From Paracoccaceae bacterium (GTDB taxonomy: Bacteria > Pseudomonadota > Alphaproteobacteria > Rhodobacterales > Rhodobacteraceae), in the NCBI GenBank assembly GCA_021775315.1, contig JAJFIC010000016.1:1-64000 (forward strand): a stretch of DNA of 64,000 bases, read 5' to 3'. Of the stretch, positions 2,471 to 27,815 are shown one piece after another. The notes under the pieces were generated by a model that was not told where the DNA came from, made no database searches, and worked only from the letters and a program-made list of their open reading frames with translations. Each line of letters begins with the position of its first letter. Positions within the stretch are counted from its first letter, which is position 1. The position numbers and the translations under genes are program-made.

Positions 2471-2854
2471 TTACCGGTGAGCGTGACGCGCATTGTGCCA
2501 GCGACCGTTTTTCCGGTGCTTGTGCCAGCCAAAATCAGCCATGCAGCGTCTGTTGTAGAATTTCTTCCAGCCGTTATGCGTCCATTTCTGGCGCAGGCAT
2601 TGGCGTGGCTTGTGTCGTTGGTTGGCATTTGCATGACGACGTTTGTTTGGCTTGTGCGCCTTGTGGCCCCGGTTCGTTGAGACCGTCACATTCGTGTTGT
2701 GCTTGTTCGCCTCGTTAACAACGATCCCGAGGATGGCGGCACCAATCAGAAAGCGGGCCAGATCATCAGCCGGATCGGCCTGAACGGGTGCTGCGGTTAT
2801 GCCGGTCATTGCGATTGCGCCAGCGGTGACAAATGCGATCAATTTGGTTTTCAT
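2471..2854 (-). CDS. Small basic exported protein of unknown function
   Basis: The gene encodes 127 residues. The N-terminus (MKTKLIAFVTAGAIAMTG, then an Ala-rich stretch ending PVQADP) is a typical Sec signal peptide cleaved near residue 27. A short hydrophobic stretch follows (LARFLIGAAILGIVV), then a very His/Arg/Lys/Asn-rich C-terminal half with two cysteines (CLRQKW, RRCMADFGW). AAAGGA stands just before the ATG at 2854. It is monocistronic with its own terminator. The basic C-terminal half could bind nucleic acid, metal or envelope polymers, but the sequence does not settle this, and I do not recognise the family. Confidence 0.7.
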   Translation of the reverse strand: MKTKLIAFVTAGAIAMTGITAAPVQADPADDLARFLIGAAILGIVVNEANKHNTNVTVSTNRGHKAHKPNKRRHANANQRHKPRQCLRQKWTHNGWKKFYNRRCMADFGWHKHRKNGRWHNARHAHR

Positions 2855-2995
2855 GACGATTTTCCTTTTATTGTCGTACCAGTGTAAGGCCGTGTTGGCC
2901 GGTGTGTTGGCACGTTAGGGAAGTGTGTTTGCCCCCAGGGCGGTGCCGATAAGCCAAACTGGCCCGAGACCTGAAAGTTAGGCAATATCGGCGCA

Positions 2996-3012
2996 ATGTT
3001 ATCGGATAACAT
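2996..3012. promoter_or_regulatory. Perfect 17-bp palindrome in a divergent promoter region
   Basis: ATGTTATC-G-GATAACAT is a perfect 8-1-8 inverted repeat in the 215-bp gap between the divergent genes at 2471-2854 and 3070-3366. It ends 57 bp before the rightward ATG. Position and symmetry suggest a dimeric regulator operator. The cognate factor is unknown, though the neighbouring winged-helix protein (3338-4048) is a natural candidate. Confidence 0.5.
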
Positions 3013-3069
3013 CGCACCAAATCGTCGGCGTTATTGAATATCAGGCGCGTTTCCCCCTATGTTTTGGGC

Positions 3070-3366
3070 ATGATGAAAACTCTTGTACAAATACTTGCCC
3101 TCAGCCTTGGCCTCGCGTTAGCGGGCCAGGCGAGCGCCGCGTGTTACGCCGATTACAAGGCCAAGAAGTCGTCGCCACTGACGCTGCATTATGGCGTCAT
3201 TCAGGTGCCTGACGGTATCTGTGGCAATTCCGGCGCAATAAAGAAAAACATCGCCAAACGGATAAAGGTTGGCGGATGGAGCTTGCTTAATGTAGTGTCT
3301 GTGTTTGGGCCCGAAGGCTTGGCGCAAAGGCAAGGCAGTGCAGGAAATTACTACCTCAAATTCTAA
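3070..3366 (+). CDS. Small exported protein of unknown function
   Basis: The mature product is short. From the ATG at 3070 (with a second ATG at 3073) the protein is 98 aa, with a Sec signal peptide (MMKTLVQILALSLGLALAG, cleaved after QASA) and a mature part of about 75 residues. The mature part has two cysteines (ACYADY, GICGN) that could form one disulfide in the periplasm. The longer frame from 3034 would put a non-hydrophobic extension in front of the signal peptide and is less likely. The stop lies inside the next gene, so the two are translationally linked. No family was recognised. Its position suggests a periplasmic partner or ligand of the membrane regulator that follows. Confidence 0.65.
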   Translation: MMKTLVQILALSLGLALAGQASAACYADYKAKKSSPLTLHYGVIQVPDGICGNSGAIKKNIAKRIKVGGWSLLNVVSVFGPEGLAQRQGSAGNYYLKF

Positions 3367-4048
3367 ACGGCGGAAAATCCTGGGTGGAAATTCCACCCTG
3401 ACAATCGGTATTGCGGCAATCATCGGCATCCTGGTGGTTGCCGCAGTTGTTTTGTTTTACACGCTGCCGGACGCCAATGCGTTCAACAACCGGGTTGAAC
3501 AGATCTTTATCGAGAATGACAATCTGACATCGAACGCTGAAATTAAGCTGCTGGAAATCCTCGCCCAATCGGGCACTTCGTTTTCTGACACGCTGGCCTC
3601 GTATCGATTCGTTATTTTTGTGCTGTTGGTGTTTTCGACCGCCATCCTGATTTCTGCACTGGTATTTCTGGTCAATATCGCCAGCATGAATCGCCGCATG
3701 TCCGAGGTTGAGCGCGCAGGCATCCAGATCAACAGCCTGATCATCAGCCGGGACGAGCTGGTGGTCTATATCAACAACATGGAATTCACCCTGACCGAAG
3801 CCGCGTTCGAGGCATTGGCCGTGCTGTGCGAGGCCCGATTGGACGATGATTTCATTTCCGGCATTGATCTGGAAGCGATGATAACCGGCAAAGACCGGAC
3901 CGATTGCGAAGAGGCGGCAGGCGCCACCCGGATCAAACGCCTGCGCGACCATCTGGGCAATCAGATGGTTTCGGACCTATTGATAAAGACGATCAGCCGC
4001 AAAGGGTATATGCTGTCGATCGACAAAGACGTAATCAAGATGATTTGA
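3338..4048 (+). CDS. Membrane-anchored winged-helix regulator, DNA-binding domain at the C-terminus
   Basis: The GTG at 3338 follows AAGGCAAGGCA and gives 236 aa; a TTG at 3305 is the longest alternative. The protein has a short basic N-terminus, a membrane segment at about 21-43, a loop of about 47 residues, a second membrane segment at about 91-113, and a cytoplasmic domain from about 125. The last 100 residues resemble the OmpR/PhoB winged-helix fold: MEFTLTEAAFEALAVL (first helix), TRIKRLRDHL (recognition helix) and LLIKTISRKGYML (wing). ToxR and CadC carry this domain at the N-terminus, so the order here is reversed. The gene overlaps the exported-protein gene by 29 bp and is followed 8 bp later by the kinase-like gene. 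Homology is judged by motif only. Confidence 0.65.
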   Translation: MQEITTSNSKRRKILGGNSTLTIGIAAIIGILVVAAVVLFYTLPDANAFNNRVEQIFIENDNLTSNAEIKLLEILAQSGTSFSDTLASYRFVIFVLLVFSTAILISALVFLVNIASMNRRMSEVERAGIQINSLIISRDELVVYINNMEFTLTEAAFEALAVLCEARLDDDFISGIDLEAMITGKDRTDCEEAAGATRIKRLRDHLGNQMVSDLLIKTISRKGYMLSIDKDVIKMI

Positions 4049-4056
4049 GGCAAAGC

Positions 4057-4860
4057 TTGGACCAACAGGAAATCAAACAAAAACTGGCGGGTCTTAGTGA
4101 CCACATCGCAAACGCACTTGACCCCGATCACGGCGAAACCGCGTTCACGCTGGAAACCATTAAAACATCCGACAGATCAACCAGCACCAAGGTTATGCTG
4201 GGCGACAAAACCGGGTTTCTGAAACTGTTTGGTGACAGCGATGCGGCGATGGCGGCATTCGCGCGCGAACGCCGTGCGCTGGATATTTTGCACAGCGAAC
4301 CCGTGCCAAAGCTGTTGTTCGTGGCTGAAAAAGAACGCGCCATTCTGACCCGTTTTATCAATGGCACGCCATTGCTGGAAAAACTGTCGCCGGAAACCCT
4401 GAACCAGACGGCGGAACATCTGGGCCAATGGTTTGGACGGCTTGCCAATCACGCACCCGCCGAAGACATGGACACCAACTGGGGGGATTATCTTGCCAAA
4501 TATCCCACCGGATTCGCGGTTGAGATTCTGGAACACCAGCATCCGATCTTGAACCAGTCCAAGATTTCGCGCGCCTCACTGTCACATAACGATAACGCGC
4601 TGGGCAATTTCATCCTTGGCGCGGACAAGCGGCTTTATGCGGTTGATTTTGAAGACAGCCAGATGAAACCCGAAGGCTGGGATCTGGTGACTTCGGCGCG
4701 GGCATTGTTTGGCCAGATGCCGGACCAGTTGCCGGTGATCTCGGGCTCGTTGCTGCGGGGGTATCAGTTGACAGCTAAAGAATGCGGGTTGGCCGATAAT
4801 TTCGATCAGGTCATCAGCGCGATCGCTGTGGCCTCTGCCTTGGCGACTGCCGAAAAATAG
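4057..4860 (+). CDS. Aminoglycoside phosphotransferase/choline kinase-fold protein
   Basis: This 267-aa cytoplasmic protein has the catalytic loop LSHNDNALGNFI, equivalent to HGDLxxxN, followed by YAVDFEDS, the DxD/E metal-binding segment of APH-type kinases. The N-terminal lobe has a plausible nucleotide-binding lysine (KTGFLKLFGD). The start is placed at TTG 4057, with GAGGCAAAG just upstream, because the longer frame overlaps the preceding gene and lacks family resemblance there. It lies 8 bp after the membrane regulator and probably shares its operon. Likely substrates for the fold include small hydroxylated molecules, sugars or lipids. Resistance to antibiotics should not be assumed. Confidence 0.7.
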   Translation: MDQQEIKQKLAGLSDHIANALDPDHGETAFTLETIKTSDRSTSTKVMLGDKTGFLKLFGDSDAAMAAFARERRALDILHSEPVPKLLFVAEKERAILTRFINGTPLLEKLSPETLNQTAEHLGQWFGRLANHAPAEDMDTNWGDYLAKYPTGFAVEILEHQHPILNQSKISRASLSHNDNALGNFILGADKRLYAVDFEDSQMKPEGWDLVTSARALFGQMPDQLPVISGSLLRGYQLTAKECGLADNFDQVISAIAVASALATAEK

Positions 4861-4975
4861 CCTCAATCTTCTGACAATTTGTCTTAAAGGCGTCACGTTT
4901 TTGACGACTTCCCAATCTAGAACGATCCCCAGTTAGATTACTCTGGGTGGCGTAATTAGTTTGGGGGTTATACCC

Positions 4976-5968
4976 ATGTCCACCGAGACCCTGACCATTT
5001 CTTTGGAAAATGGTTGCATAAAAGGCTCCGACCATATCTCTGGCGATGTCGATGACACGCAATATGTGACATTAACCGACGATGATGATCTGAACTCTGT
5101 AACGTTTGCAAAATTCGGTACTGGCACGCCATCAGAATCGGGCGAAGGTTCGGGGGGTGACGACGAATATTATCTGGACCTCGAGGGTTTTGATGACGAC
5201 TTTACGATCAACGTCAAAAGTATGGACGAGGGTGACACCTTCTTCGTCAAAGGTGCGCTATCGTACACCAGCGACGGCGACGAATACACCATCAACTATA
5301 TCGGTTCTGACGGCCTTGTGCATGAATGTACGATCGACGTTGATTCAACCAACGGTACCGGTGTGGCCGGAATTTCGATCACATGCTTTGCCACGGGCAC
5401 TATGATCGACACGCCCAAGGGCCTTGTCGCAGTACAGGATCTTGGCCCCGGCGATCAGGTTCTTTGCGGCGACGGGCAGTCCCGCCCGATCATGTGGATG
5501 TCCCAGCGGTATGTGTCCAAGGCCGAAATGGCGCTCCAGCCGGAATTTCGCCCGATTCGCATCCGAAAAGATGCCTTTGGCGACAACGGCCCGCACACCG
5601 ATCTGATCGTTTCACCGCAGCACCGCGTTCTTCTTAGCGACTGGCGTGCTGAACTGCTGTTTGGCGAGGCCGAGGTTCTGGTGCCCGCCGTACATCTGAC
5701 CGACGACCGCAACATCACCCCCGACTATCAGGCAGACGACGTGACCTATTATCACTTTATGTTCGACAGCCATCAAACGGTCTGGTCGAACGGTCTGGAA
5801 ACCGAAAGCTTTTTCCCCGGTGACGAGGCGATTGAAGGGGTGCAGACGGAAGCCAAAGAAGAGCTTTATCAGCTTTTCCCTGAGCTTAAATCCAATCCGG
5901 TTTCCTATGGCAAGACTTGTCATTTAACGCTGAAAGCGCACGAGGCGATGTCGATGATGGGGGTCTGA
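4976..5968 (+). CDS. Hint-domain protein with acidic N-terminal region
   Basis: The 330-aa protein has two parts. The N-terminal 130 or so residues are very acidic, beta-rich and Gly/Asp/Ser-rich. From CFATGTMIDTPKGLV onward there is a Hint (hedgehog/intein) domain of the kind abundant in Rhodobacteraceae, with the catalytic Cys at the domain start and a later SPQHRVLL block with the conserved His. Such domains can self-cleave and are often found on secreted RTX-like proteins. Here no RTX repeats are present. The ATG at 4976 is preferred over a TTG at 4961; a GGGGG tract stands 9 bases upstream. No signal peptide is evident, so a type I route would be needed for export. Confidence 0.8.
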   Translation: MSTETLTISLENGCIKGSDHISGDVDDTQYVTLTDDDDLNSVTFAKFGTGTPSESGEGSGGDDEYYLDLEGFDDDFTINVKSMDEGDTFFVKGALSYTSDGDEYTINYIGSDGLVHECTIDVDSTNGTGVAGISITCFATGTMIDTPKGLVAVQDLGPGDQVLCGDGQSRPIMWMSQRYVSKAEMALQPEFRPIRIRKDAFGDNGPHTDLIVSPQHRVLLSDWRAELLFGEAEVLVPAVHLTDDRNITPDYQADDVTYYHFMFDSHQTVWSNGLETESFFPGDEAIEGVQTEAKEELYQLFPELKSNPVSYGKTCHLTLKAHEAMSMMGV

Positions 5969-6943: not shown

Positions 6944-7104
6944 GTTTGGACACCTCGACCATAACATTCGAAATCGCGCATATTTCCAGAATCATGCATT
7001 ATTTCGCCAGATTAGTCCATTAATATACGATTTCAGATATGCTTTGCTGTGGCTTCTACGGGGAAATCCAACAAAAAGGCTCGCTTCTGCTTGCGGGGAA
7101 ACCT

Positions 7105-26270: not shown

Positions 26271-27815
26271 ATGGTACCTCTCGATGACGACAGCAAAAAG
26301 AACGACGTTCGCGGACCAACCGGCCACCCGCTGGAAATTCCACGCCTCGCTTGCGGTGCGATGGCCGATCTGGAAAGCTACCACGCCAAACCTGCCCATA
26401 ACGAACCGCTGGGTTTCCCGGGCGAACTGATTGACGACTGGAAAGAGGTCGCAATCGCCAAAATCGGCGAATTGGCGTCAAAAAACCGGGCTTTTCAGGT
26501 CTATCTTGACGCCTGCGTAAAATGCGGTGCCTGCACGGATAAATGTCACTATTTCCTTGGCACCGGTGACCCCAAAAACATGCCGGTCGCGCGACAGGAT
26601 TTGCTGCGCAGCGTTTACCGCCGGTATTATACATTTGCCGGCAAAAATTTCCCTTGGCTGGTCGGCGCACGCGATCTAACGCGCGAAGTTCTGGACGAAT
26701 GGTACAACTATTACCATCAATGTTCACAATGCCGCCGCTGCTCGGTCTTTTGCCCTTACGGCATTGATACCGCAGAAATTTCCATGGCCGCGCGTGAAAT
26801 CCTCGATACCGTCGGGCAGGGCCAGAAGTACTGCAACGAGATTATCGCCAAGGTCAAAGATGTCGGCAACAATCTGGGCCTGAACCCAAAAGCATTGCGC
26901 GCCACACTTGAAGATCTGGAAGAGGATCTTGAAGAAGAAACCGGCATCTCCGTCCGCCTGCCACTCGATGAAAAAGGCGCTGATATCCTGCTGATCACAC
27001 CCTCGGCGGATTTCTTTGCTGAACCGCATATCGAAGGGCTGCTTGGCTACGCAAAAGTTTTCCATGCCGCCGGTGTCAGTTGGACCATCAGTTCTTACGC
27101 CTCTGAGGCTGCGAATTTCGGCATGTTCATCGGCTCGTATGAAAACATGCGCGAGGTCAGCCTGCGCATCCGCAAAGCCGCGCAAGATCTGGGCGTCAAG
27201 CGCATCGTCTTTGGCGAATGTGGTCATGCATGGCGGGTCGCCTACAGCTTTTTGAACACACTGGCCGGACCGTTTGATTTCCTTGACCAGAATTACCCGA
27301 TCCCTCAGCACATTCTGGAATTCACCCATGCTGAGATCGAAAAAGGTACGCTGAATTTCGACAAATCAAGAAACGATGAATACCGCATGACCTATCACGA
27401 CAGCTGCAATGTGGCGCGTGGGTCAAGGATGGGCGACAAACCCGGCGGACAGTTTGAAATCCCGCGCGCGGTGCTCAAGGCCGTGTGCAACAATTATTTC
27501 GACATGGACCGCGACACGATCAAGGAAAGCACGGTTTGTTGCGGCGGCGGCGGTGGCCTGCTGACCGACGAACTGATGGACCTCAGAACCAAAGGCGCAA
27601 GCCCGCGGATGAAGGCCCTGCAACAAGTAACCGAGGATCACGGCGTTACCCACATGGCCGCGATCTGCGCAATTTGCAAAACCCAATTCTCAAAAGTCAT
27701 GCCGAAATTCGGCTACGAGATGGATTCAGTCCTGTCCGTACACCAATTGGTGTCAAACGCCATCATTCTGGACGGACAACAAACAGCTGACGATACGTCA
27801 GAGGCGGAGGAATAA
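26271..27815 (+). CDS. dsrK: DsrK iron-sulfur protein (HdrD-like)
   Basis: The 514-aa cytoplasmic subunit has two ferredoxin-type [4Fe-4S] motifs (CVKCGACTDKCHYF and CSQCRRCSVFCPYG) and later CCG-type cysteine motifs (CGHAW; CCGGGGG; CAICKTQF), which form the noncubane cluster site in HdrB/HdrD relatives. It is thought to reduce or oxidise the DsrC trisulfide/disulfide and exchange electrons with DsrM. The gene begins 10 bp after dsrM. Confidence 0.95.
   Translation: MVPLDDDSKKNDVRGPTGHPLEIPRLACGAMADLESYHAKPAHNEPLGFPGELIDDWKEVAIAKIGELASKNRAFQVYLDACVKCGACTDKCHYFLGTGDPKNMPVARQDLLRSVYRRYYTFAGKNFPWLVGARDLTREVLDEWYNYYHQCSQCRRCSVFCPYGIDTAEISMAAREILDTVGQGQKYCNEIIAKVKDVGNNLGLNPKALRATLEDLEEDLEEETGISVRLPLDEKGADILLITPSADFFAEPHIEGLLGYAKVFHAAGVSWTISSYASEAANFGMFIGSYENMREVSLRIRKAAQDLGVKRIVFGECGHAWRVAYSFLNTLAGPFDFLDQNYPIPQHILEFTHAEIEKGTLNFDKSRNDEYRMTYHDSCNVARGSRMGDKPGGQFEIPRAVLKAVCNNYFDMDRDTIKESTVCCGGGGGLLTDELMDLRTKGASPRMKALQQVTEDHGVTHMAAICAICKTQFSKVMPKFGYEMDSVLSVHQLVSNAIILDGQQTADDTSEAEE

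Follow-up and report, generated by a model that had tools for sequence, protein, structure and literature searches.

A conserved gene pair and its phased dyad array in Rhodobacteraceae: a candidate kinase-free switch for the cell envelope

The window analysed here is a stretch of 64,000 nucleotides on the contig labelled C19 of a 3.69-Mb genome, which is assigned to the family Rhodobacteraceae from the titles of its relatives. Genomes are numbered with G (that of the window is G000) and loci with L. An earlier note on this DNA described a compact unit of three genes, for a small exported protein, a membrane-bound winged-helix regulator of reversed topology and a protein of the APH fold, with a perfect palindrome upstream. 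Re-checking the open reading frames returned the same coordinates, including the 29-bp overlap of the first two genes, here named g1 and g2, and the 8-bp gap between g2 and the APH-like frame; the palindrome at 2996–3012, upstream of g1, is indeed perfect. The start codon of g1 is predicted to be ATG 3073 or 3070 (97–98 codons), and its stop codon ends at 3366. All upstream of g1 and on the minus strand lie g127 and two genes that we take, from the translations of the window's reading frames, to be rnhB and ccrM. The features of the locus are:

2471 to 2854, minus strand: g127 (127 residues), divergent, predicted exported; by its position only, a candidate second target of the array
2977 to 2989, plus strand: dyad D1, GTTAGGCAATATC, one mismatch to GTTAT-N3-ATAWC
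2998 to 3010, plus strand: dyad D2, GTTATCGGATAAC, the middle of three dyads and the core of the palindrome 2996–3012
3030 to 3042, plus strand: dyad D3, GTTATTGAATATC, including TTGAAT, the likely −35 element of g1
3058 to 3063, plus strand: TATGTT, the likely −10 element of g1, close to the start codon
3073 to 3366, plus strand: g1, predicted exported small protein of 97 residues from ATG 3073, with invariant C24 and C50
3338 to 4048, plus strand: g2, predicted GTG start, predicted membrane-anchored winged-helix regulator
4057 to 4860, plus strand: APH-fold protein (PF01636), predicted TTG start, a neighbour outside the conserved unit
4961 to 5968, plus strand: Hint-domain (PF13403) protein, downstream of the APH-like frame

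Hydropathy gives two hydrophobic segments in g2, in agreement with the two membrane segments described before, and the loop between them has 48 residues. Taking hydropathy together with the helices of a structural model, the protein can be divided as follows:

3395 to 3463, plus strand: first membrane helix, residues 20–42 by hydropathy (edges approximate; helix 18–42 in the model)
3464 to 3607, plus strand: loop, residues 43–90, very conserved, predicted periplasmic (membrane side from charges)
3608 to 3676, plus strand: second membrane helix, residues 91–113 by hydropathy and model (edges approximate)
3728 to 4030, plus strand: OmpR/PhoB-type winged helix, residues 131–231, by profile and fold

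Charges are distributed unevenly over these parts, with 4 K/R and 1 D/E at the N-terminus, 3 K/R and 2 D/E after the second helix, and 3 K/R and 7 D/E in the loop. Since the N-terminus and the stretch behind the second helix are more positive than the loop, both ends of the protein should be cytoplasmic. The loop is also the least divergent part of g2 over 31 loci (mean 0.24), with the winged helix intermediate (0.29) and the membrane parts differing most (0.44).

The C-terminal domain matches the profile Trans_reg_C (PF00486) at E 5.1e-5 in the window, where its 23.7 bits lie below the gathering score of 26.2; across the g2 family, 47 of 47 members, the window included, match this profile at E-values up to 1 (best 1.9e-6). 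An AlphaFold2 model of g2, of middling confidence (pLDDT 68.5), folds residues 131–231 as an OmpR-type winged helix. For this domain Foldseek returned a best E-value of 3.3e-4, and VIA-align gave Z-scores of 9.9–12.4 among the 50 matches listed, which include PhoB, CovR, VanR, CadC and ToxR. Profile and fold comparison thus bear out the winged helix that had been proposed, and its place after both membrane helices confirms the reversal of domain order relative to ToxR and CadC.

What kind of regulator is g2? A response regulator of the OmpR/PhoB class would carry a receiver domain with a phosphorylatable aspartate. No receiver-domain family appears among the Pfam matches of g2 up to E 10, and the NCBIfam response-regulator matches cover residues 99–227 only, the N-terminal half being made up of the membrane helices; this assignment was rejected. 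So was a ToxR/CadC-like one, which asks for an N-terminal winged helix and a periplasmic C-terminal domain, an arrangement that g2 does not have. Two traits of the transmembrane transcription regulators (TTRs) are present, in that one protein carries both a DNA-binding domain and one or more transmembrane regions. Because the domain order of ToxR/CadC was looked for and not found, we place g2 as a variant of the TTRs and not as a ToxR/CadC member.

The product of g1 has one N-terminal hydrophobic segment by hydropathy, which fits the earlier description as a small protein with predicted export. About 74 residues follow, in which C24, the motif YKAK (28–31) and C50 are invariant in 45 members; the two cysteines would form a disulphide. 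The model is confident (pLDDT 87.6), with the order E-E-H-E-H following the signal region. The window protein matched 0 families in each of Pfam and NCBIfam, and the 45 members together gave 16 weak, scattered Pfam families; the DUF4177 profile gave a weak match in 1 of the 45 (E 0.27). Searches by fold returned a best Foldseek E-value of only 0.55, with no convincing relative, and a best VIA-align Z-score of only 5.3, to unrelated ribosomal and RNA polymerase proteins. On the profile searches, a place for g1 in a named family was rejected; the fold comparison excludes no particular family.

Do g1 and the loop of g2 change together? Distances among g1 proteins from 31 loci track the loop no more than the rest of g2, with partial r of 0.30 for the loop, 0.28 for the winged helix and 0.45 for the membrane parts. 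Four loci (L044, L047, L053 and L075) carry a C-terminally shortened g1 that retains both cysteines. Two of them, L047 and L053, share the replacement Q77L in the g2 loop, which is absent from all other of the 73 distinct g2 sequences; in L075 the loop is altered at many places, and in L044 it is ordinary. These loop changes alongside a shortened g1 may be taken as a lead, noticed afterwards, and not as a test.

The pair is widespread in its family, and cultured carriers of g2 include Planktotalea frisia and Maritimibacter alkaliphilus HTCC2654. Among 295 Rhodobacteraceae genomes, g2 is present in 233 and g1 in 233, and the two tables, whose equal tallies were compared by hand, read as the same 233 genomes with both genes and 62 without both. 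A wider search at class level found alignment matches to g2 in 5 of 385 genomes, all Rhodobacteraceae; the 20 genomes listed from the 380 without a match all belong to other families. By locus, a single-sequence search found a relative of g1 at 75 of 77 loci, with none seen in L038 and L040; the window (L001) is one of the 77, and certain genomes contribute two loci each (L002/L033, L003/L037 and L005/L043 are examples), as is also true of the 74 loci considered below. When presence of the pair is traced on a tree of RNase HII with 69 rows, 39 with the pair and 30 without (G028 among the latter), parsimony requires 12 changes (bootstrap 9–13), of which at least 3 are forced by well-supported branches. 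Such repeated changes fit several losses of the whole pair. Among the listed rows we noticed four genomes, G040, G103, G168 and G184, in which both genes are kept and stand apart. An adjacent partner gene that is kept with its regulator, as in co-component systems of the ToxRS kind, is thus what g1–g2 present.

The third gene has a different history. A relative of the APH gene occurs at 6 of the 74 loci with enough DNA (3 further loci were too short), the window and one genome counted twice among them, and the other 68 have none. Gene order is therefore conserved in part: the order g1–g2 is widely kept and the two genes are present or absent together, and the APH gene does not share in this. 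We rejected it as a member of the unit, which, as judged from sequence comparison, is the two genes g1–g2 and not the three of the earlier note. Its product does score as a member of the phosphotransferase family (38.5 bits, with a Pfam gathering cut-off of 23.2), and the gene also follows g2 in L002/L033 (one genome), L031, L032 and L075. At these same loci the APH-like and Hint-domain genes (4057–5968 in the window) co-occur behind g2; L047 has a more distant Hint match without the APH gene. These two genes could constitute a separate small pair.

We now turn to the DNA in front of g1. A pattern made from the palindrome 2996–3012, with up to 3 mismatches, has 1 match in the window where 0.08 are expected, and 7 of 100 shuffles contain at least one; GTTAT-N3-ATAWC with up to 1 mismatch has 6 strand matches where 2.33 are expected, a number reached by 5 of 100 shuffles. 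In G000 the exact single dyad GTTATNNNATAWC shows no enrichment (6+4 strand matches, as against 4+3 for the reversed control), and its 7 places in the 3.69-Mb genome include 2 at the g1 locus. Since the reversed control turns up at a similar rate (7 strand matches vs 10), a lone dyad means little. What goes beyond chance is the three-dyad array conserved in the relatives.

The arrays were collected with a finder that allowed 16–35 bp between D1 and D2 and 16–44 bp between D2 and D3, and that gave a small bonus to the D3 centres TGA, TGC and TGT. After removal of identical stretches, 72 distinct upstream regions remained, a denominator that retains L009 and L058, which have no real array, and L054, in which D1 and D2 are 32 bp apart. 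The D1–D2 spacing is 21 bp in 69 of the 72. The D2–D3 spacing falls into three classes in 70 of the 72, namely 22 bp (8 regions), 31–33 bp (51) and 42–44 bp (11), with 2 outside, and these classes correspond to 2, 3 and 4 turns of the helix. Phasing as good as this arose for seven random lengths in about 1 of 10,000 draws, in a test that ignores shared ancestry. In 69 promoters, TTGAAT is followed 17 nt further on (18 nt in the window) by a conserved CANNNT, with C in 92%, A in 85% and T in 81%. As TTGAAT lies in D3 and CANNNT follows near the start codon, D3 appears to overlap the −35 element of g1, and the g1 transcript would be leaderless.

Genomes with separated genes give a view of where the array belongs. 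In G184 (L137), where g2 is relocated, a D1–D2 element of its own precedes g2 (2927–2954), and the g1 promoter (6969–7055) carries four phased dyads (21, 22 and 31 bp); the separate element before g2 fits autoregulation. In the other three of the four separated genomes, G040, G103 and G168, the array is found with g1 only. On the far side of the array, between it and rnhB, lies g127, which has no Pfam family and whose relatives, found at many loci, show little conservation; the array could control g127 as a second target.

Are there such arrays elsewhere in these genomes? A sequence-only model of D1–D2 (R1), built from 69 g1 promoters, was searched against two sets of 62 genomes, one with the pair and one without. 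Matches of at least 22 bits away from g1 occur in 13 of the 62 genomes with the pair and in 0 of the 62 without (Fisher p 1.2e-4), and matches of at least 19 bits in 17 and 3 (p 0.001), where both cut-offs were chosen after the scores had been seen and both tests ignore kinship. The 13 genomes are G000, G002, G003, G010, G011, G034, G040, G051, G063, G103, G104, G121 and G169. Model searches on more than 40 genomes used stricter filters, by which weak matches were lost; in G020, G024 and G031 the strong match could not be placed relative to g1 and was counted as the g1 array. Of 26 array loci checked, that of G066 alone contains g1, and it was left out of the count.

Genomes without the pair do contain weaker matches: some R1 match at E up to 1 is seen in 40 of the 62, the top ones being in G096 (20.2 bits) and in G028 (20.0 bits, before a peptidoglycan-binding gene). 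Completeness is 86% for the assembly of G028, whose contig breaks off 326 bp upstream of rnhB, at the expected place of g1–g2; for that of G096 it is 77%, and no rnhB was seen there. Given these incomplete assemblies, the pair may be missing from the assemblies only. The partial match in G146 (19.5 bits), also a genome without the pair, looks like chance. A simple pattern with up to 2 mismatches points the same way. In 50 genomes with the pair, 46 of which match, it gave 83 matches (21 exact) against 8 for the reversed control, in totals that include the g1 arrays and were summed by hand; the 62 genomes without the pair gave 64 matches, none exact, against 51 for the control, with 27 of the 62 matching.

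The neighbours of the strong arrays are mostly exported proteins. A gene for a signal-peptide protein lies on one side of the array in 11 of the 13 genomes, a raw figure for which signal peptides were called by eye and either side was counted. Five of the 11 belong to one exported peptidoglycan-binding family (PF01471 in the one scanned), three are exported proteins without a Pfam family (G000, G103, G169), and the remaining three are a DUF2799 lipoprotein (G063), a curlin-repeat protein (G040) and a family-less small exported protein (G002). The other side of the array holds, in G000 and G169, what is presumably a CoA-transferase-like gene. Beside the arrays of G003 and G011 stand genes for proteins that are not exported, MeaB and a hemerythrin-domain protein, respectively. 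Further sites, at chance level or slightly higher, precede genes for OmpA/glycine-zipper proteins (G003, 19.3 bits; G036, 13.4 bits), LolA (G067, 17.8 bits), an SH3-domain protein (G127, 21.7 bits) and a curlin-repeat protein (G126, 20.9 bits); the LolA site and the OmpA site of G036 are no better than the best match in genomes without the pair (20.2 bits).

Seen from the protein side, the exported family with a C-terminal peptidoglycan-binding domain has a D1–D2 array upstream in 8 of 8 full-length cases (L121, L127, L132, L211, L212, L219, L223 and L237), 6 of which served as query rows and had come to light by way of that array. Searching with the proteins contributed two more, in G051 and G028; each has an array, and full-length members lacking one did not turn up. 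The remaining protein hits (5 + 1) are segments of longer reading frames. The arrays of this family score from 18.5 (G077) to 34.0 bits (G034), so that not all pass 22. Only 1 full-length member occurs in the 62 genomes without the pair, and because these genomes thus mostly lack the family as well, loss of the array and loss of its target are inseparable. The small array-linked exported proteins resemble g127 by eye only; tblastn of g127 against the 26 loci gave nothing better than E 0.032, and that one match (L221) is a g1 locus.

Taken together, we consider it probable that g1 and g2 form a two-gene transmembrane module of the Rhodobacteraceae, in which g2 binds the arrays and controls g1–g2 as well as envelope genes, with g1 as its periplasmic partner. 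In this mechanism, g2 would remain in the inner membrane and bind the array through its winged helix. D1 and D2 would constitute an upstream activator site on the polymerase-facing side of the DNA, and D3 would overlap the −35 element; the position of D1–D2 on that side points to activation. From there g2 would drive g1–g2 and a small envelope regulon, whose best supported member is the peptidoglycan-binding exported family and which may also include the curlin-repeat, DUF2799 and unnamed exported proteins. Expressed from the same promoter, g1 would be exported to the periplasm and there report on or damp the g2 loop as a feedback partner, presumably by contact with g2. The signal may be envelope or peptidoglycan stress, which is a guess, and every step from DNA binding onward is one that we infer.

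Is g2 really the protein that binds the array? It is the most economical candidate, because the locus encodes it, its domain is of a suitable kind, and g2 was present wherever strong arrays turned up. The main rival is a Fur-family regulator such as Zur, or an unknown factor, of which g1–g2 would be one target, with g2 binding elsewhere; we hold this to be unlikely. In its favour, the half-sites GTTAT/ATAAC are identical to those in GTTATACAATAAC, at 26334–26346 of contig C110 of G000 (L089). This sequence lies between znuA and a zur-like gene of the Fur family and is a likely Zur site; the Zur box of E. coli has such half-sites. That the array stays with g1, and not with g2, in three of the four separated genomes also speaks for another binder. 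However, strong arrays are confined to genomes with g1–g2 in the comparison of 62 with 62, the genes beside them include no obvious zinc genes, and three phased dyads stand against a single site at znuA/zur, so that the two share their half-sites and differ in number, phasing and centre. Another known factor, CenR, was considered as owner of the array and rejected, as its published Rhodobacter sphaeroides motif TGA-N8-TGA (PMC9275681) differs by eye from the consensus of 69 promoters.

If g2 does bind the array, it could act mainly as a repressor that blocks RNA polymerase at D3 and the −35 element, with release brought about by a periplasmic signal or by g1. The presence of TTGAAT within D3, 17 nt ahead of the conserved CANNNT, is what such a protein would exploit, but the helical phasing of D1–D2 relative to D3 is a requirement of an upstream activator, and the second arrays were found as D1–D2, a clear D3 being absent from the stretches examined; we regard repression as rather improbable. 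Least credible of all is a module of all three genes, where the APH-like kinase would modify either the signal or g2. The 8-bp gap in the window, the same arrangement in a few relatives and a score above the gathering cut-off lend it a little substance, against which stand the 68 loci without the gene and the presence of a Hint-domain gene wherever the APH gene is found, with which the latter may go.

How does the pair compare with known systems? Membrane-bound transcription regulators are common according to the TTR survey (PMC10269533), and g2 shares with them the DNA-binding domain and membrane helices in one protein without a kinase step; g1–g2 differs in joining the regulator to a conserved, exported partner and in its array of phased operator sites, and the parts of that survey consulted do not name this lineage. 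The CenKR system of Rhodobacter sphaeroides (PMC9275681) has in common with g2 an OmpR-type winged helix, an envelope-rich regulon and a related host, but it works through a histidine kinase and a receiver domain at TGA-N8-TGA, whereas the array in front of g1 consists of GTTAT-N3-ATAWC dyads. With ToxR/CadC and ToxRS the pair shares an OmpR-type winged helix on a membrane protein and an adjacent partner gene. In g2, however, the membrane helices come first and the winged helix last, the opposite of ToxR/CadC, and a short loop between two helices takes the place of their folded periplasmic domain; the ToxRS partner acts in the periplasm, and g1, unlike it, is predicted to be soluble. Closest to the proposed feedback role of g1 is CpxP, a small periplasmic protein under control of the regulator that it would tune, with the histidine kinase CpxA as sensor; g1 itself matched no named family. 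Reversed domain order, a soluble partner, family-wide conservation and a phased operator are what is distinctive here.

Titles and abstracts found in a literature search, which took in few subscription papers, include none that describes the g1–g2 pair, and the motif strings tried matched two unrelated papers only. The envelope control that we found described for Rhodobacteraceae is the two-component system CenKR (PMC9275681). On balance, and by a small margin of confidence, we lean towards an undescribed, family-wide and kinase-free envelope switch, in which a tethered winged helix of reversed domain order and its disulphide-bearing partner would act on dyad arrays spaced by whole helical turns to control their own genes as well as envelope genes. 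Rhodobacteraceae are abundant in the sea. If true, this family would possess a conserved kinase-free alternative to CenKR, directly testable through an operator code that can be read and through its candidate targets, and its phased array would offer a clean system for understanding how a membrane-bound regulator reaches its DNA.
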